33,585 bases of DNA from Alphaproteobacteria bacterium (lineage in GTDB: Bacteria; Pseudomonadota; Alphaproteobacteria; UBA9219; RGZA01): assembly GCA_021732145.1 (NCBI GenBank), contig JAKFVN010000045.1, positions 1 to 33,585 on the forward strand, read 5' to 3'. The notes under the pieces are model-generated. The model did no database searches. It had not been told where the DNA came from and worked only from the letters and a program-made list of their open reading frames with translations. Position 1 is the stretch's first letter. The number at the start of each line of letters is the position of its first letter. A program made the position numbers and the translations under genes. Below are positions 1-7,762 of this stretch, piece by piece.

Positions 1-1812
1 TGGAGCTGCTTTGGCGATAATGGCGGCGTAACCGCGCAATGCGTTGTCTATACGCTTGTCAGCGGTGCATGCGGCCCTGCCAATCATATTGCAACGGGTT
101 CCGCGCCAACAACGGGCTTATGCAAATCTGGCCATGAAACGGCAGTGATCGGCGATGGCCCCTGGAGCTGGAGTTGCACGGGTTCCGGTGAAAACACAAC
201 CGTGAGCTGCACTGCGCCTGTTCTGAAGGAAGGCGCATGCGGTGAGGCGAATGGCATTGGCGCAGCATCTATGCCGCATTCAGGTCTTTGCGCATCCGGT
301 AATGCAAGCGCGGTTAGCGGCACAAATGGTAATGGGGGCCCATGGAATTGGAAATGCACCGGTGAAAATGGCGGCGCATCGGTTAGCTGTTTCGCGCCTG
401 TCTTATTGAACGCTGCGTGCGGCGCGGCGCATGGTGTGGGCGTTGCCGTTGCACCTGCTGAAAATCTTTGCGGTTCAGGCACAGCAAGCGCAGTTTCTGG
501 CACTCAAGGTAATGATGGCCCGTGGAACTGGACATGCAATGGTGAAAATGGCGGCGCAATGGCCGATTGCATGGCACCCAAGAAACTGGATGGCGTGTGC
601 GGCGCGGCGCATCAGGCTGGTTCATCCGATGCGCCAATAACAGGTTTATGCAATTCCGGAATGCCCAGCGCGGTTGCGGGCACGGGCCCGTGGCAATGGT
701 CGTGCCAAGGCGCTGGCGGCGGCATCACGACGACATGTGTTTCGCAGCCGTTGGTTCATGCAGGGTGCGGTTCAGCGCATGGCGTGAGCGTAACCGCGCC
801 GCCAACGGATCATCTCTGCGCAACCGGCACGCCAACCTCGGTGATTGGCAGCGGGCCGTTCATGTGGTCATGCCAGGGCGCGAATGGCGGCAGCGCGATT
901 AACTGCATGGCCCCATTGCAGGTAAATGGCGCATGCGGCAGCGCCGACGGCGTTCCAGTGAACATTGCACCAACGGGTAACCTCTGCCGCAGTGGCACGG
1001 CATCCGCCGTTTCCGGCAATGGCCCATATGCATGGACATGCAGCGGCGCTGGCGGCGGTATCAGCACCACATGTCAGGCACCCATTATCACGGCAATGCC
1101 AGACCCCGTTCCGCCACCAGCTGCTACTGCGCCCGCGCCCGAAGTGCATGTGCCGGAAGCCACCGCGAAGGCGGGTAATGAATGCACGCCGTCGGTGAAG
1201 CGGTGGACGATTACCTGCCAGCAGGGCGGTTATCCATCGAATTACACCGGCGTGATTGTTGGCGAAACCCAAACGCTGTGCCCAACCGGCGTTGAGCGCG
1301 GCGTGTGGCTATCCAACAGCTGCGCGGCCGCGACGGATTCAGCGCCCGTGTCACCATCCCCCGGTAAATTGGAAACGCCCGCCAGCAATCATAAGGTAAC
1401 GGATGTGCTGCCGCACATCGCGCCGATGCCGGCCAAGCAATTGGATGCGCCAAAAAAATTATACACGCCGCGTTACAAGCAAGCGCCATCTGCAACCGCC
1501 ACCGAAGACATGACGACGATTTCCTTTGCGTCAACTTCGGAAGCGCTGGATAGCAGCGCAACCAATGCGCTGGACGGCGTGATGAATGAATTGAACGGTA
1601 ACGATAAAAGCATCGTGACCTTGAACGCCTATGCCGCAACACCGGCGGATGGCGACCAGCAGGAATCCCGCCGCATGGCGCTGGCACGTGCCTTGGCCGT
1701 GCGCAGCTACTTAATGCGCAAGGGATTAGCCAGCAACCGCATTGACGTAAGAGCGGTTGGCCCAGCCAGCGATAATCGCGGCGATGACAGGGTTGATATT
1801 AAGGTCAAATAG
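1..1812 (+). CDS. Cys-rich tandem-repeat surface protein with C-terminal OmpA-like domain (5' truncated)
   Basis: The frame is open from the first base, so the true start lies upstream; 603 codons are visible. The first ~360 residues are tandem repeats of about 56-60 residues. Each carries four Cys and the recurring motifs GPWxW, CxGxNGG, ACGxAxG and LCxSG. A Pro/Ala-rich linker follows (nt ~1087-1170). Then comes a further Cys-containing block (nt ~1180-1330), a Pro/Lys-rich stretch, and an OmpA-like domain (nt ~1510-1809) with the pattern RxxALARALAVRSYL, a Gly-Pro turn and the terminal DDRVDIKV. OmpA-like domains bind peptidoglycan, so I infer an exported, cell-wall-anchored protein whose Cys pairs form disulfides. 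The repeats could mediate adhesion, but this is not shown. The signal peptide would lie outside the window. The OmpA call is good; the function of the repeats is unknown. Confidence 0.8.
   Translation, partial: WSCFGDNGGVTAQCVVYTLVSGACGPANHIATGSAPTTGLCKSGHETAVIGDGPWSWSCTGSGENTTVSCTAPVLKEGACGEANGIGAASMPHSGLCASGNASAVSGTNGNGGPWNWKCTGENGGASVSCFAPVLLNAACGAAHGVGVAVAPAENLCGSGTASAVSGTQGNDGPWNWTCNGENGGAMADCMAPKKLDGVCGAAHQAGSSDAPITGLCNSGMPSAVAGTGPWQWSCQGAGGGITTTCVSQPLVHAGCGSAHGVSVTAPPTDHLCATGTPTSVIGSGPFMWSCQGANGGSAINCMAPLQVNGACGSADGVPVNIAPTGNLCRSGTASAVSGNGPYAWTCSGAGGGISTTCQAPIITAMPDPVPPPAATAPAPEVHVPEATAKAGNECTPSVKRWTITCQQGGYPSNYTGVIVGETQTLCPTGVERGVWLSNSCAAATDSAPVSPSPGKLETPASNHKVTDVLPHIAPMPAKQLDAPKKLYTPRYKQAPSATATEDMTTISFASTSEALDSSATNALDGVMNELNGNDKSIVTLNAYAATPADGDQQESRRMALARALAVRSYLMRKGLASNRIDVRAVGPASDNRGDDRVDIKVK
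67..1086 (+). repeat. In-frame tandem repeats, 168 or 180 bp per unit
   Basis: Units begin at the Cys-Gly codon pair at 67, 235, 415, 595, 763 and 931, giving periods of 168, 180, 180, 168 and 168 bases. The last unit ends near 1086. The 180-base units have four extra codons before the GPWxW motif. Copies are clearly related in protein but diverged in DNA, with short identical tracts such as ggtgaaaatggcggcgca near 361 and 541. This indicates old duplication under selection for protein structure rather than a recent expansion. Confidence 0.85.
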
Positions 1813-1837
1813 TTCTAGAAAACCTCTCTCAAATTCC

Positions 1838-1864
1838 AACTGCGGCTTAGCCGCAGCGAATTTT
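1838..1864 (+). terminator. Perfect 17-base palindrome, candidate terminator and mini-repeat
   Basis: CTGCGGCTTAGCCGCAG at 1840-1856 is a perfect hairpin palindrome 28 bases after the surface-protein stop. It is followed by cgaatttt, a short T tract. It could act as a weak intrinsic terminator before gapR. Its left and right ends also match the two termini of the longer palindromic element at 5160-5272. Confidence 0.45.
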
Positions 1865-1870
1865 AAATCG

Positions 1871-1899
1871 GTTCAAATCGTTCAAATATTATAAAAGGA
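1871..1899 (+). promoter_or_regulatory. Direct repeat and ribosome binding site before gapR
   Basis: Two adjacent 9-base copies, GTTCAAATC and GTTCAAATA (1871-1888), sit in an AT-rich leader directly before the AAAAGGA ribosome binding site (1893-1899). The ATG is at 1905. The spacing of one repeat per 9 bases is not a standard operator. GapR prefers AT-rich DNA, so self-binding is possible but only inferred. No clear -35/-10 pair was found. Confidence 0.3.
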
Positions 1900-1904
1900 T
1901 TATC

Positions 1905-2186
1905 ATGCCCGCTCAAACCAGCGCCATTAAGGTCAGTGCCGGAACAACCCCAGGCAATTTTGCAGGTGACCGCTTAAAAACACTGATTGAACGCATTGAG
2001 CGTCTGGAAGAAGAAAAAGCTGGCCTGGCCGAGGATGTGCGCGATGTGTTTGCCGAAGCAAAATCAGCGGGCTTTGATGTCAAAGTGATGCGTCAGGTTA
2101 TTCGCCTGCGCAAGATTGACGGCAATGAACGCGCCGAGCAGGAAGAAATCCTGGAACTCTATAAAGCTGCCTTGGGCATGCTTTAA
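1905..2186 (+). CDS. gapR: GapR-family nucleoid-associated protein (DUF2312)
   Basis: The 93-residue protein has a disordered 20-residue N-terminus. Two charged helices follow: IERIERLEEEKAGLAEDV near residues 29-46, then the strongly conserved AEAKSAGFDVKVMRQVIRLR (residues ~51-70). The C-terminus ends in an EEILELYKAALG-type segment. This matches GapR/DUF2312 in length and motif order. Caulobacter GapR is an essential AT-rich-DNA-binding protein that senses overtwisted DNA and supports replication and chromosome segregation. The start is fixed by AAAAGGA six bases upstream. The Rieske gene begins 22 bases downstream with no terminator visible, so the two may be co-transcribed. Confidence 0.93.
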   Translation: MPAQTSAIKVSAGTTPGNFAGDRLKTLIERIERLEEEKAGLAEDVRDVFAEAKSAGFDVKVMRQVIRLRKIDGNERAEQEEILELYKAALGML

Positions 2187-2208
2187 GGACACCCCTTAGA
2201 AAGCTGAC

Positions 2209-3291
2209 ATGGCTGAGTTTGCACCATTCTTTTTAAGAAGCATCTGGTACTACGCACTGCCATCGCAGACCCTTGCCAAAGGCAAGATGGTTGCCAAGAC
2301 ATTGCTCGGCGAACCGGTTTTGTTTGCACGCAAGGACGACGGAACTGTATTTGCCTTGCGCGATGTATGCCCGCACCGTGCCATGCCGCTGTCCTGCGGA
2401 AGGTTTGATGGCCGCGAGGTTGAATGCTGCTATCACGGCTGGAGATTCGATAAGGAAGGCGTGTGCCGCGATATTCCGTGGCTGACAGGGCATGAAGGCA
2501 TTGACCCCGCCAACATCAAGGTGCGTACCTATCCCGTAATGGAAGTGCAGGGGAATATCTGGATTTTCATGTCTGATAAAAAAGAGGCAGAAAAAGCGGG
2601 CGCAAACCCTGATGCGTTTGCGCATAAGCCGCCCGTGCTGCCCGGCATTGCGATGGATGCACAAGCGGGGCTTTGGACCCATTCATTATTCCCGTGCCAT
2701 ATGGATCATGCGGTGATTGGATTGATGGACCCCGCGCATGGCCCGTTTGTGCATCAGGCATGGTGGTGGCGCGGTAAAACATCCATCCATGAAAAGGCCA
2801 AGGCCTTTGGCGCAGCGCCATTCGGGTTTGTGATGAAGAAGCACAGGCCATCCAGCAATTCATTTGGCTATAAAATTTTGGGCGGCGTGCCGGAAACAGA
2901 AATTGTCTTTGCGTTGCCTGGCGTGCGCATTGAGCATATTCAAATCGGCCAAGAAAAAAATAAGCATCACGTGATTAATTTGACCTGCGTTACGCCCATT
3001 AGCGAAACGCAAACGGAAATCACCCATTTGATTTACTGGACACAGCCCTGGCTGGCGCTGATTAAGCCATTTTTCCGCCCGTTCATGGAAGGGTTTATCG
3101 AGCAGGATAAGGATGTGGTGACGCGCCAGCAAATTGGCCTCAAGCACGAGAAATCCATGCTGTTATTAAAGGATGCCGATACGCAGGCGCGCTGGTATTT
3201 CCAGCTAAAACAGGAATATGCGAAGGCTTCGTCCGAGTCCCGCGCTTTTAATAACCCTGTACCTGACGTAACATTGCGCTGGCGGAGCTGA
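2209..3291 (+). CDS. Rieske [2Fe-2S] non-heme iron oxygenase
   Basis: The 360-residue protein begins with a Rieske domain (residues ~8-120). The cluster ligands are visible as C54-x-H56 and C73-x2-H76 (motifs CPHRAMP and CCYHGW). A catalytic domain follows with the likely mononuclear-iron facial triad D174, H177 and H182 in the pattern DPAHGPFVH. This is the layout of the ring-hydroxylating/demethylating oxygenase alpha subunits (vanillate demethylase, pheophorbide oxygenase and relatives). No ferredoxin or reductase gene is adjacent, so electron delivery must come from elsewhere. The substrate cannot be told; sterol-, lipid- or aromatic-type substrates are all possible. It follows gapR closely, an unusual pairing. 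Confidence 0.88.
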   Translation: MAEFAPFFLRSIWYYALPSQTLAKGKMVAKTLLGEPVLFARKDDGTVFALRDVCPHRAMPLSCGRFDGREVECCYHGWRFDKEGVCRDIPWLTGHEGIDPANIKVRTYPVMEVQGNIWIFMSDKKEAEKAGANPDAFAHKPPVLPGIAMDAQAGLWTHSLFPCHMDHAVIGLMDPAHGPFVHQAWWWRGKTSIHEKAKAFGAAPFGFVMKKHRPSSNSFGYKILGGVPETEIVFALPGVRIEHIQIGQEKNKHHVINLTCVTPISETQTEITHLIYWTQPWLALIKPFFRPFMEGFIEQDKDVVTRQQIGLKHEKSMLLLKDADTQARWYFQLKQEYAKASSESRAFNNPVPDVTLRWRS

Positions 3292-3340: not shown

Positions 3341-4174
3341 ATGGACAATATAGCGTTCTGGCTTAGCAAGGTTTTATGGGCAATTTTTTCGCCGGCGCAT
3401 TTCGCCGTATTTTTGCTTCTTGCCAGTTTTATTATTCAGCAGCGGCTTATCAAGCTGGTTTTGCGCGGGCTGGTTACCGCGTTTTTTACCATCGCGCTGA
3501 TATTCCCGATTGGCGATTGGGCGTTGCTGCCGCTGGAGCAATGCAATTCCGACCAGGGCATGCCGATGCGCGTGGATGGCGTGCTGGTGCTGGGGGGCGC
3601 AGTCAACATATCCGTTTCCAATGCACGAAATGCAATTGCATTTAATGATGCAGGCGAGCGGATTTTTGCGATGCTGAAGCTCATCAAGCAATATCCATCT
3701 GCGCAGTTCATCTATGCGGGCGGCAGCAATTCATTAAAGCGCGTCAATCTGGGTGAAGCCGATTATGTGCGCATGTTCCTGGAAGATATGGGCGCAAAGC
3801 CTGCCAATATGATATTTGAAAGCAAATCGCGGAACACTTATGAAGATGCGAAGGAAACCAGGGATGCGTATAGCCTTACGCCCAAGCAAAACTGGTTGCT
3901 TGTGACATCGGCATTCCATATGCCGCGTACCTTTGGGCTATTCCAGAAAATGGGCGAAAAATCGGAGACCGCCTTCTATCCCTATACCGTTGATTATAAA
4001 ACGCCGGGCAAGTTCAAGTTTGAATTCAAGTTTGATTTCCTGCAAACCCTATTGAAATTAGATACGGCTGCGCATGAATATGTTGGGCTGTTGTTTAATT
4101 CCATGATGGGCCGCAGCAACAGCTTCATGCCATGCTCGGTCAACAAGCAAACACTCAACAAAGAAACGCTATGA
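3341..4174 (+). CDS. YdcF/ElyC-like DUF218 membrane protein
   Basis: The 277-residue protein has two hydrophobic segments near the N-terminus (residues ~6-31 and ~38-56). A DUF218 domain follows, with DGVLVLGGAV (~80-89), an AGG motif, SRNTYEDA and LVTSAFHMPR. These are the signature blocks of the YdcF/SanA/ElyC family, inner-membrane proteins tied to envelope and peptidoglycan homeostasis in enterobacteria. The stop overlaps the mltB start (ATGA), so translation is probably coupled, which fits an envelope role. No strong ribosome binding site is seen at this ATG, so the start is less certain than the identity. Confidence 0.85.
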   Translation: MDNIAFWLSKVLWAIFSPAHFAVFLLLASFIIQQRLIKLVLRGLVTAFFTIALIFPIGDWALLPLEQCNSDQGMPMRVDGVLVLGGAVNISVSNARNAIAFNDAGERIFAMLKLIKQYPSAQFIYAGGSNSLKRVNLGEADYVRMFLEDMGAKPANMIFESKSRNTYEDAKETRDAYSLTPKQNWLLVTSAFHMPRTFGLFQKMGEKSETAFYPYTVDYKTPGKFKFEFKFDFLQTLLKLDTAAHEYVGLLFNSMMGRSNSFMPCSVNKQTLNKETL

Positions 4175-5154
4175 AAAAGCTTATCCCACTTTTCCTGCTT
4201 ATCGCACTGGCATTCCAGGCGCCTCTATTGCGTGCGCAAGAATACAGCAAGCCGGAATACAGCATCTGGCTTGGCGATTTGATTAAGGAAGCCATTCAGC
4301 ACGGTGTCCGTCCTCAAACAGCATATAACGCGTTAGCCAATGTGGAATTTGACCCAAGCATTATCGAAAAAGACCGCAAGCAGCCCGAAAGCCAGCAAAC
4401 GGCGCAGCAATACTGGAAAAAAATCATCACCAGCCAGCGCATGGAACGCGCCAAGAGCTTTTATAACGCCAACCGCGTATTGCTGAACCAGATTGGCGAT
4501 ACATACGGCGTGCAGCCGCGGTTTCTGGTGGCCATTTTAAGCCTTGAGAGCAATTTTGGCGATGTGCAGGGCGATGAACTTATCATTCCAGCGCTCACCT
4601 CGCTTTCCTATGACGGGCGGCGCACGGCGTTTTTCAAGGCCGAATTATTCAACGCGCTGAAGATTATTGATAAGGGACATATCGCGCAGGAGGAAATGGT
4701 AGGTTCATGGGCCGGTGCGATGGGCTGGTGCCAATTCATGCCATCCACATTCCTGAAATATGCCGTTGATTTTGATGGCGATGGCCGCACGGATATTTGG
4801 CATTCGGTTGCCGATGCTACGGCATCGGCCGCGAATTACATGCATGAAATCGGCTGGCGCAGCGATGAAACATGGGGCCGCCAGGTGCGGTTGACCAAAC
4901 CCGTGCCTGAAGAATTCATGGGCCGCGATGTGCGCCGCCCGCTTAGCGAATGGTCAGCAATGGGCGTGCGCGGCATGAACGGCAAGGCCTTGCCGGAAAG
5001 CAAAAATATCGAAGCATCGCTGATTACGCCCGATGGTTCGGACGGGGTCAGCTTCCTTGTGTACAACAATTTCAACGTGATTATGCAGTGGAACAAATCC
5101 ACCTATTTTGCGACTTCCATAGGCATGATTGCCGATAAACTAGGCAATAAATAA
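4171..5154 (+). CDS. mltB: Lytic murein transglycosylase B
   Basis: I place the start at the ATG overlapping the previous stop. It gives a proper signal peptide (MKK followed by a hydrophobic core to about residue 22, ending LLRAQ), whereas the longer in-frame start does not. The 327-residue protein has the MltB/Slt35 fold motifs: catalytic Glu126 in ILSLESNFG, then AGAMGWCQFMPSTF and the Ca-binding-like loop DFDGDGRTDIW. It ends in the conserved NxSxYFAxxIGxxAD-type segment. No lipobox is present, so it is probably soluble in the periplasm. It cleaves the MurNAc-GlcNAc bond to give 1,6-anhydro ends, a substrate source for Mpl-type recycling (mpl is also in this window). Confidence 0.92.
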   Translation: MKKLIPLFLLIALAFQAPLLRAQEYSKPEYSIWLGDLIKEAIQHGVRPQTAYNALANVEFDPSIIEKDRKQPESQQTAQQYWKKIITSQRMERAKSFYNANRVLLNQIGDTYGVQPRFLVAILSLESNFGDVQGDELIIPALTSLSYDGRRTAFFKAELFNALKIIDKGHIAQEEMVGSWAGAMGWCQFMPSTFLKYAVDFDGDGRTDIWHSVADATASAANYMHEIGWRSDETWGRQVRLTKPVPEEFMGRDVRRPLSEWSAMGVRGMNGKALPESKNIEASLITPDGSDGVSFLVYNNFNVIMQWNKSTYFATSIGMIADKLGNK

Positions 5155-5159
5155 AATCT

Positions 5160-5272
5160 AACTGCGGCTTCAGCTTTTTGCGCTTTCCTCTGCTTCCGGT
5201 GCTCACGTACTTAAACGCACGCTCCGCGCCGGTTCTCGAAAAGCATCAAAAATCCTTTGCCACAGCGATTTT
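5160..5272. repeat. Nested imperfect palindromic intergenic element
   Basis: This 113-base element fills most of the 225-base gap between mltB and rlpA. Its ends form an inverted pair, ctgcggc (5162-5168) with gccacag (5259-5265). A second pair is TTTTTGCGCTTTC (5175-5187) with the T-rich complement of 5238-5252. A third is CCGG at 5196-5199 and 5229-5232, around a core containing acgtacttaaacg. The whole can fold as one long imperfect hairpin. The termini recur joined together at 1838-1864. This looks like a dispersed palindromic repeat family rather than a terminator, though it may serve as one. Confidence 0.6.
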
Positions 5273-5379
5273 CTGCATAAGATTTAGGTCAATAATTAAG
5301 GCAAAAATTGTTTACGCTTTGGTAACCGAATCTGGAAGACTGTGAAAAACTCTAATACGTTTCGGCTAAAGGATTCGTC

Positions 5380-6540
5380 ATGTCACCTCGTCATTTAACA
5401 CGCCTCGCTCTCGCGCTGCTCATGCTGGTGGTTGTTGCCGCATGTTCCGACACGCGCGATTATGGAAAAGGCAGCGGCACACCCGGGCAATATAAAGTAG
5501 GTGAGCCCTATGAAATTGACGGCATACAATATGTGCCACGCGAAGATTTCAAATATTCGGAAACCGGGATTGCGTCATGGTATGGCCCTGGCTTTGAAGG
5601 CCGGCGCACCGCCAACGGCGAAACCTTTGATCCAGGCGAATTGACGGCGGCGCATCGCACATTGCCGATGCCGTCGCTTGCGCGCGTAACCAATCTGGAC
5701 AACGGCAAGTCCGTTGTCGTTCGCATTAATGACCGCGGCCCGTTTGCCAACAACCGCATCATTGATATGTCGCAGCGTTCAGCTGAGTTACTTGGATTTG
5801 CAGGGCAGGGAACGGCAAAGGTGCGAGTGGACATCATGGAGATTGAAAGCCGCGCAATCGCCGATGCTGCTAAAAAACGCGGTTATATCGCCCCAAGACG
5901 CGGCGAAACGCAGTATGCTGCAAAGAGTTCTGCGCCTCGGCAAGAATTCATCATGCCAAAGGCTGAAATGCAGGATGGTGAAGGCATAACCGAAACCGCC
6001 AAGGTTGAGCATGTAGAAGCGGTTCCGCTCGATGCAACACCCTCTGGCCCGCAAGCAACCGATGCGGATGCGCAGATTAATACATCCGTGCAATCCGCTG
6101 AGCTGGACGCGCCAGCCGATTTAGCGCCCAAAGCCAAGACCGTTGATATTTCAAAGGTTGTTGCTGCGGGCAACACAAAAGCGGCGGCACCAAAGCAGGT
6201 GTTACATGCGCCCGTGCCATTGGTTCGCGACAAGGTGACGACGGTTCCTGGCCACACGGTGCAGGGCCGTTTCTACCCCGCGCCGCAAGTGAAGCAAATG
6301 AAGGTAACGGGCAAAGACCGCATCTTCATTCAAGCGGGTGCATTTGCGCAAAAAGACAATGCAACGCGTTTGCAATCATCGCTTGGCAAGATTGCCAAGG
6401 CCGATGTAAGCCTGATTACCGTAAAGGGTAAGAAGCTGTACCGCGTACGCCTTGGGCCGCTTAAGAACGTGAGTGAAGCTGACCGTGTGCTTGCCAAAGT
6501 ACTGCCGCTCAGCAAGCAGGCGCGTATTACTGTTGAATAA
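5380..6540 (+). CDS. rlpA: Septal-ring-type rare lipoprotein A (RlpA)
   Basis: The 386-residue protein has a lipoprotein signal peptide with the lipobox VAAC and acylation at Cys22. A double-psi beta-barrel domain follows (residues ~60-155; motifs GIASWYGPGFEGRRTANGE, AAHRTLP and VRINDRGPF). A long Ala/Pro-rich linker leads to a C-terminal SPOR domain (~310-386; IQAGAF... and KLYRVRLGPL). RlpA proteins are outer-membrane-linked transglycosylases acting on glycan denuded of peptides, and SPOR domains target such glycan at the septum. The ATG at 5380 has AAAGGA at spacing 6. It is likely the first gene of an operon with the D,D-carboxypeptidase 28 bases downstream. Confidence 0.95.
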   Translation: MSPRHLTRLALALLMLVVVAACSDTRDYGKGSGTPGQYKVGEPYEIDGIQYVPREDFKYSETGIASWYGPGFEGRRTANGETFDPGELTAAHRTLPMPSLARVTNLDNGKSVVVRINDRGPFANNRIIDMSQRSAELLGFAGQGTAKVRVDIMEIESRAIADAAKKRGYIAPRRGETQYAAKSSAPRQEFIMPKAEMQDGEGITETAKVEHVEAVPLDATPSGPQATDADAQINTSVQSAELDAPADLAPKAKTVDISKVVAAGNTKAAAPKQVLHAPVPLVRDKVTTVPGHTVQGRFYPAPQVKQMKVTGKDRIFIQAGAFAQKDNATRLQSSLGKIAKADVSLITVKGKKLYRVRLGPLKNVSEADRVLAKVLPLSKQARITVE

Positions 6541-6568
6541 TATCTAAGAGCCGGAGTTTCCAACCCAC

Positions 6569-7762
6569 ATGCGTTTTTTAATCGCGCTGCTGCTTGCGCT
6601 TCTGCCATCCCATTCCTTTGCTGCTAAATCCGCGCCCAAGCCCGTTGCAGCACCGGTTGAAAAAGCAGCGCCGGAAATGGTGGGCGGTTCCATTGCCAAG
6701 CAGGCTTATCTGATTGATATGAATACCCACACCGTGCTGCTCGATAAGGGCGGCGAGGTGAAAATGCCGACATCCAGCATGAGCAAGATGATGACCGTCT
6801 ATGTGATGTTTGAAGCATTAAAGGCGGGTAAGGTCGCGTTGAGCGATGAATATACGGTGAGCGAGAAAGCATGGCGCTCCACATACAAGGCGGAAGGTTC
6901 CAGTTCCTTCATGCCGCTGAACAGCAAGGTGAAGGTGGAAGATTTAATCCGCGGCATCATCATTCAATCCGGGAATGATGCGACGATTGTGATGGCCGAA
7001 GGGCTTGCGGGTTCCGAAAGCGCGTTTGTGGCGGCGATGAATGACAAGGCGCAGCAATTGGGTATGAAGAACAGCCATTTTGCAAATCCATCCGGCCTTC
7101 CAGAGCCGGAGCATTATTCAACCCCGCAGGATCTGGCGTTGCTGGCATGGCATCTCATTCATGATTTTCCGGAGTATTATCATTACTTCGCGGAAAAGGA
7201 ATTCACCTTCAATAATATCAAGCAGGGCAATCGCAATCCGTTGCTGTATAAAAACCTTGGCGTGGATGGTTTGAAAACCGGCCATGCCGATGAAGCGGGA
7301 TATGGCATCACGGCATCCGCCATTCGCAATGGGCGGCGCTTGATTTTGGTGGTGAACGGTCTTGGCAATATGCAGGAACGATCCGATGAAGCGCAGCGTT
7401 TGATTAATTACGGCTACGATGAATTCGCGCTGGTGAATGTTGCCAAAAAAGACGAGGCCATTCGCAACGTGAAGGTTGCCTTTGGCAAGGCCAAAACCGT
7501 TCCCGTTGCCATTACCAGTGATGCGTCCGTGACCGTGCGCAACACCGAGCGTTCAAAGGTGAAAACCAATGTTCAACTCAGCGAACCCATTGAAGCGCCC
7601 ATTGCCAAGGGAACCGAAATTGGCAAATTCAACGTGTTGATGGGTGATGAAAAACTTGCAACTTATCCGCTGGTTGCAGGCGAAAGCGTGCCAAAGCTTG
7701 GCTTTTTCCCTTTAATGTGGGCAAAATTGCGCTTTATGATTACCGGGAAATATGACGAATAA
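6569..7762 (+). CDS. D-alanyl-D-alanine carboxypeptidase, PBP5/6 type
   Basis: The 397-residue protein has an N-terminal signal peptide (~1-19, ending SFAA). It carries the three penicillin-binding motifs: S70-x-x-K73 (SMSK), S134-G-N136 and K236-T-G238. A C-terminal PBP5-like beta domain lies at ~290-380, and a basic/hydrophobic tail (MWAKLRFMI) probably anchors it to the inner membrane. It trims the terminal D-Ala from pentapeptides, limiting cross-linking and creating denuded-stem substrates. It lies between rlpA and tmk and overlaps tmk by 11 bases, so the wall genes and the replication/translation genes appear to be one transcript. The dacA/dacC distinction cannot be made from sequence alone. 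Confidence 0.95.
   Translation: MRFLIALLLALLPSHSFAAKSAPKPVAAPVEKAAPEMVGGSIAKQAYLIDMNTHTVLLDKGGEVKMPTSSMSKMMTVYVMFEALKAGKVALSDEYTVSEKAWRSTYKAEGSSSFMPLNSKVKVEDLIRGIIIQSGNDATIVMAEGLAGSESAFVAAMNDKAQQLGMKNSHFANPSGLPEPEHYSTPQDLALLAWHLIHDFPEYYHYFAEKEFTFNNIKQGNRNPLLYKNLGVDGLKTGHADEAGYGITASAIRNGRRLILVVNGLGNMQERSDEAQRLINYGYDEFALVNVAKKDEAIRNVKVAFGKAKTVPVAITSDASVTVRNTERSKVKTNVQLSEPIEAPIAKGTEIGKFNVLMGDEKLATYPLVAGESVPKLGFFPLMWAKLRFMITGKYDE

Follow-up and report, generated by a model that had tools for sequence, protein, structure and literature searches.

The DNA analysed here (the window, 33,585 nucleotides) begins inside a gene for a Cys-rich repeat protein with an OmpA-like end. The locus raises two questions: what such a protein does in the envelope, and where its repeats came from. 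Frame +1 is open from base 1 through the stop codon at 1810-1812 and forms a single reading frame that enters at the left edge. Base 1 of the window is also base 1 of contig C25 in the source genome (G000), so the gene is truncated by the contig end. Window positions 1-1812 are the 3′ portion of a longer gene for a secreted Cys-rich envelope protein.

The upstream part, which a preliminary description had placed beyond the window, was located on contig C49 of the same assembly. The reverse strand of C49 stops within the same repeat where the window begins. The two contigs share no overlapping sequence; the placement relies on the matching repeat in a full-length relative from the same genus (G002), and the C49 and window sequences were kept separate and never joined into one gene. 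The open frame on C49 starts with a signal peptide recognised by eye (MLLQKFKLSLLFALLVALCLGPVHA), followed by a long Pro/Ala-rich stretch and then the first repeats. A signal peptide was also seen by eye near the start of 12 full-length relatives in alignment A1, whose start codons were guessed. The full-length protein therefore appears to carry the signal peptide that the preliminary description had made its reading depend on. The G002 relative has 1186 residues as read and eight repeats, and is 92% identical across the window part. By comparison with it, the parts encoded in the window are as follows.

1..54, + strand: 3′ end of one more repeat, truncated at the contig boundary (repeat 2 of 8 by comparison with G002; HMM 9.8 bits; remainder on C49)
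61..225, + strand: complete four-Cys GPWxWxC repeat (3 of 8; HMM 60.2 bits)
229..405, + strand: complete repeat (4 of 8), loop ahead of GPW longer by 4 residues (HMM 62.7 bits)
409..585, + strand: complete repeat (5 of 8), loop ahead of GPW longer by 4 residues (HMM 61.9 bits)
589..750, + strand: complete repeat (6 of 8; HMM 60.9 bits; in the AlphaFold2 model)
757..921, + strand: complete repeat (7 of 8; HMM 63.2 bits; in the AlphaFold2 model)
925..1089, + strand: complete repeat (8 of 8; HMM 66.2 bits; in the AlphaFold2 model)
1090..1176, + strand: Pro-rich linker (from the translation)
1177..1329, + strand: second four-Cys block (W...C...GYP...G...GET...C...W..N.C) with three predicted beta strands (28/33 order genomes and 0/380 others; pLDDT about 96)
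1330..1494, + strand: Pro/Lys-rich linker of low model confidence (pLDDT 45-70 by 10-residue block)
1495..1809, + strand: OmpA-like domain, conserved Arg kept, DAP-binding Asp replaced by Ala (PF00691 E 6.6e-10; VIA Z 16.3)
1810..1812, + strand: stop codon (end of the open frame)

The HMM used for the repeats was built without any sequence from the window's family, and its noise level was set by 1000 shuffles of the same protein (top score 7.6 bits). It found six complete four-Cys repeats (60.2-66.2 bits) and a piece of a seventh, which bears out the count of at least six in the preliminary description; the Pro-rich linker, the further Cys block and the OmpA-like end are also all present in the order given there. 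A scan for promoters and terminators at window 1700-2250 gave nothing useful. On the 3′ side, window 3341-7762 holds genes for DUF218, a lytic transglycosylase (MltB type), RlpA and a D-Ala-D-Ala carboxypeptidase, and this set stays together in G002 and partly in G003 and G004.

The repeat has a period of 56 residues, or 60 where the loop has 4 extra residues, with Cys at model positions 4, 21, 39 and 50. Among 510 distinct repeats in the examined loci, 478 covered all four Cys columns, and 476 of these 478 had Cys in every one of them. Both the Cys and the Trp residues are near-invariant. Complete repeats missing two Cys, sought as a guide to the disulfide pairing, did not occur among the 510.

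Three consecutive repeats (window nt 583-1098) were modelled with AlphaFold2 from 122 aligned rows. Besides the window, the alignment (A2) contained 121 three-repeat stretches, taken from the 152 non-redundant ones found. The model was all beta with a mean pLDDT of 96.7 and a pTM of 0.75, so the ordered repeat fold that the preliminary description expected was indeed predicted, as three ordered beta domains. A Foldseek search of this model against the PDB returned nothing at E 0.001 or better, the best matches being Ig domains at E 0.18. No VIA-align comparison reached a Z of 5. The Ig-like matches were weak; the top one had a Z of 4.3 over 156 residues at 6.9 Å, a level which by VIA-align guidance is possibly just a common arrangement. 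Tandem Ig-like domains such as those of ICAM-1, IgLON and bacterial Ig-like proteins resemble the repeats in being tandem all-beta chains, but the window repeat has merely 56 residues and carries four near-invariant Cys. Given the confident pLDDT, the repeat fold is taken as ordered; no solved structure resembles it convincingly. A phage protein, the best viral fold match (E 1.1e-4, TMq 0.35), was rejected as evidence of origin for its poor superposition and 18% identity.

Searches with the sequence gave a similar picture. Nothing scored above the curated cut-off on the repeats in Pfam, NCBIfam or PHROGs (scans of five, five and four proteins, of which three were orthologues and the rest other repeat-bearing proteins), and the notable library matches were of OmpA type at the C-terminus. 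A sequence look-up of the repeat in the PDB gave no match and a profile search no convincing one (best E 0.53), and phage and plasmid records had no match. In viral contigs, 4 pattern matches were found and 0 were confirmed. Motif spellings and five of six descriptive terms led to no paper in the literature collection searched, a result that holds for that collection.

The repeats hold their positions in the array. Within the window's family, a repeat was matched best by its counterpart at the same position in 43 of 48 comparisons (6 expected). The same was found in three groups with equal repeat number, at 351/360, 150/160 and 57/66 (30, 20 and 6 expected), where close relatives within the groups inflate the larger counts. 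Alignment A6 omits row L001, a duplicate of the window, and A5 omits row L007, whose coordinates were wrong. Since position identity holds between genera, the array is not freely exchanging, and this stability would speak for fixed roles in a structure more than for an adhesin array with free exchange. Three G000 repeats share the 4-residue loop insert before GPW (window 307-375 and 487-555, and C49, L039 reverse strand, 5808-5876), and the insert is absent from these positions in G002 of the same genus. At the DNA level the three inserts resemble one another, a sign that repeats may have been exchanged within the gene, and this is an exception to the position stability.

Repeat number ranges from 1 to 12 across the order; the two copies read in G009 and G012 each gave one repeat hit. 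This range argues against a strict length role. It could also be read as neutral expansion, in which the repeats would be a spacer with no specific function that was inserted into an envelope gene. We consider this highly improbable, as it sits badly with position-specific conservation between genera and with the near-invariant Cys and Trp.

The second Cys block lies between the repeats and the OmpA-like domain in the window's family, and before the repeats in the other families of the order that were read. It was modelled together with the OmpA-like part, with a pLDDT of about 96 and three strands; the fold-search listing for this model was filled by OmpA-like matches. Sequence searches with it gave no match (best E 0.33 against the PDB; in Pfam, one of 15 members reached E 0.051), and a profile comparison found no relation to the repeat.

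The C-terminal domain matched PF00691 with 39.7 bits (cut-off 27.2, E 6.6e-10), and its predicted fold is OmpA-like (VIA Z 16.3 to 9uu2, 2.0 Å over 103 residues; Foldseek E 9.9e-07 to 6jfw). In A. baumannii OmpA, D271 and R286 are described as critical for diaminopimelate binding (PMC6572160). When the window was aligned to two OmpA-like structure sequences, the conserved Arg was present and the DAP-binding Asp was Ala. The Asp is also absent from the three aligned relatives in the window's family. All 19 aligned family and outgroup domains have the Arg, and 7 have the Asp. At the Asp position, Ser, Ser and Gly stand in the three outgroup proteins from the same locus, which keep the Arg, and seven relatives in the same order retain the Asp. 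The protein shares the C-terminal fold and the conserved Arg with OmpA, Pal, YiaD and OprF; it differs from them in having no Pfam beta-barrel, no lipobox by eye and Ala at the Asp position, and its family has hundreds of low-complexity residues and the Cys repeats ahead of the domain.

Thus, the peptidoglycan-binding OmpA-like end named in the preliminary description stands as far as the fold and the Arg are concerned, and is weakened at the Asp. Docking of this domain at peptidoglycan is plausible from the predicted fold, less so from the Ala. The residues at the Asp position, in the family and in the outgroup, together with the role of Asp and Arg in A. baumannii OmpA, also suggest another possibility: the domain may no longer bind peptidoglycan and may dock on a different envelope protein, making the whole a linker within the envelope. 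The retained OmpA-like fold and the seven relatives that still have the Asp count against such a loss, and we regard it as rather improbable.

The genomic context bears on the origin of the repeats. Of the 15 order genomes whose upstream flank was 2.7 kb or more, 8 have the genes efp and suhB immediately upstream and 7 lack this neighbourhood. At each of the 3 loci taken from genomes beyond the order, the gene that comes after efp and suhB is OmpA-like, and neither the repeat HMM nor the Cys-block HMM hits it. The proteins of these other Alphaproteobacteria (G033, G034 and G035) share the locus, the OmpA-like C-terminus and a low-complexity part ahead of it; they differ in their length of 292-469 residues as read and in having neither the four-Cys repeat nor the Cys block by HMM. 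Because the same locus outside the order holds a repeat-free OmpA-like gene, the simplest account is that an envelope gene of older origin probably received the repeats and the Cys block by insertion.

The order typically carries this protein. Searches with the entire protein of the window matched 30 of 33 order members and 4 of 6 other members of the class, where the three matches that were read run through the OmpA-like part. The Cys block was present in 28/33 order genomes (20/21 of the good ones); in a class sample of 385 genomes, it occurred in 4 of the 5 order members and in none of the 380 others. The three-repeat profile matched 5/5 order members and 2/380 others in the class sample, and 7 of 398 genomes in a phylum sample, two of the 7 being order members. 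Among named genomes, 134 of 247 pattern stretches encoded relatives and 76 loci were kept; these include records labelled Geobacteraceae, Bdellovibrionaceae, Paceibacterota, Gracilibacteria and Micrarchaeota, although MAG labels may be wrong. In 15 scanned proteins from other lineages, the partner domains included RCC1, NHL, laminin-G, LRR, InlB-type B repeats and IPTL-CTERM. A Micrarchaeota MAG encodes a protein with three repeats and a class III (archaeal pilin-type) signal peptide (L090 5635-7509). In G007, a 1.5 Mb genome of the same order, 34 repeat-profile matches are spread over many open frames, an apparent expansion. The source genome also encodes other large secreted-looking Cys-rich proteins: two on contig C8, of 1386 and 775 residues (L187 10077-14237 and 3341-5668), one on C3 (L143 589-1803) and one on C29 (L188 8765-10066). 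Those on C8 and C29 have no Pfam hits, and in several of these proteins a shared N-terminal region, with a VPFxTxxEWxAF-like motif, is apparent by eye.

The preliminary description had proposed an adhesin or contact factor. In that case the OmpA-like end would sit at the wall and the repeats would cross the outer membrane to bind cells or surfaces. The extracellular-type partner domains in other phyla (RCC1, NHL, laminin-G, LRR, IPTL-CTERM) leave room for a surface role, and the archaeal signal peptide, the many matches in G007 and the weak resemblance to Ig-like adhesion chains point the same way. No result supported adhesion or surface exposure. The three full-length orthologues scanned have no Pfam beta-barrel or other outer-membrane exit domain and no adhesion domain, and the repeats hold their positions. 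A surface adhesin is thus unlikely, though an alternative to be taken seriously.

The contact role had been linked to a possible Micavibrio-like predatory host, and none of our results supports such a host. Micavibrio labels are attached to two MAGs from this order; the Cys block is missing from EAC75 and SAT33, two further MAGs with the label Micavibrio sp. No 16S match was found in the window's own genome, so G002 from the same genus was used as a stand-in; its 16S is just 84.0% identical to that of EAC75 over 1090 bases, and 87.9 and 88.1% identical to those of two other order members. In NCBI taxonomy the name Micavibrionales is absent and Micavibrio is placed elsewhere. Micavibrio aeruginosavorus ARL-13 has large repeat proteins of RTX type for which a role in prey contact was proposed (PMC3189940). 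The likeness to the window protein is that of large repeat proteins with such a proposed role; as described there, the ARL-13 proteins have GGXGXD repeats and type I secretion signals, and in the window protein the repeats are of the Cys type and the signal peptide, read by eye, is a Sec one.

We favour a Sec-exported, wall-docked, disulfide-stabilised rod that most likely serves as an envelope scaffold or spacer, a reading to which we give about an even chance. In its favour are the order of the domains, the number of repeats in relatives, the confidently predicted folds, Cys that hardly vary, a locus shared with repeat-free OmpA-like genes, and the position identity. Against it stand the missing Asp, the variable repeat number, the seven genomes that lack efp and suhB upstream, and the extracellular-type partner domains in other phyla. 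The protein would comprise a signal peptide, a long and probably disordered Pro/Ala-rich stretch, eight four-Cys repeats, the second four-Cys block, a linker and the C-terminal OmpA-like domain. After export into the envelope by the Sec route, the repeats would fold as a chain of small beta domains into a stiff rod, probably held by disulfides formed in the periplasm. The OmpA-like domain probably retains the C-terminal end at peptidoglycan, and the rod and the flexible N-terminus may together span the periplasm, so that the whole protein would act as a structural scaffold or spacer of the envelope. The scaffold is the simplest reading, and the adhesin reading stands beside it.

Taken more broadly, we tentatively propose, at somewhat less than an even chance, that the repeat represents an extracellular family of beta domains which has no name yet, is marked by four Cys that hardly vary, and is common to alphaproteobacteria, other proteobacteria, CPR bacteria and an archaeal MAG. 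Within a single order of alphaproteobacteria, it would have been built into an old efp-suhB-linked OmpA-like gene, giving an envelope rod typical of that order, with a separate and fixed role for every repeat. A widespread and very regular extracellular repeat with a confidently predicted fold is without an entry in the Pfam, NCBIfam and PHROG libraries searched, and the proteins that bear it go unannotated for this reason. For the order, the finding means that an envelope gene has been remodelled across all of it, with the likely before-state still seen at the same locus in other alphaproteobacteria. Because this before-state is visible at a shared locus, the role of the putative inserted rod may be tested by comparison.
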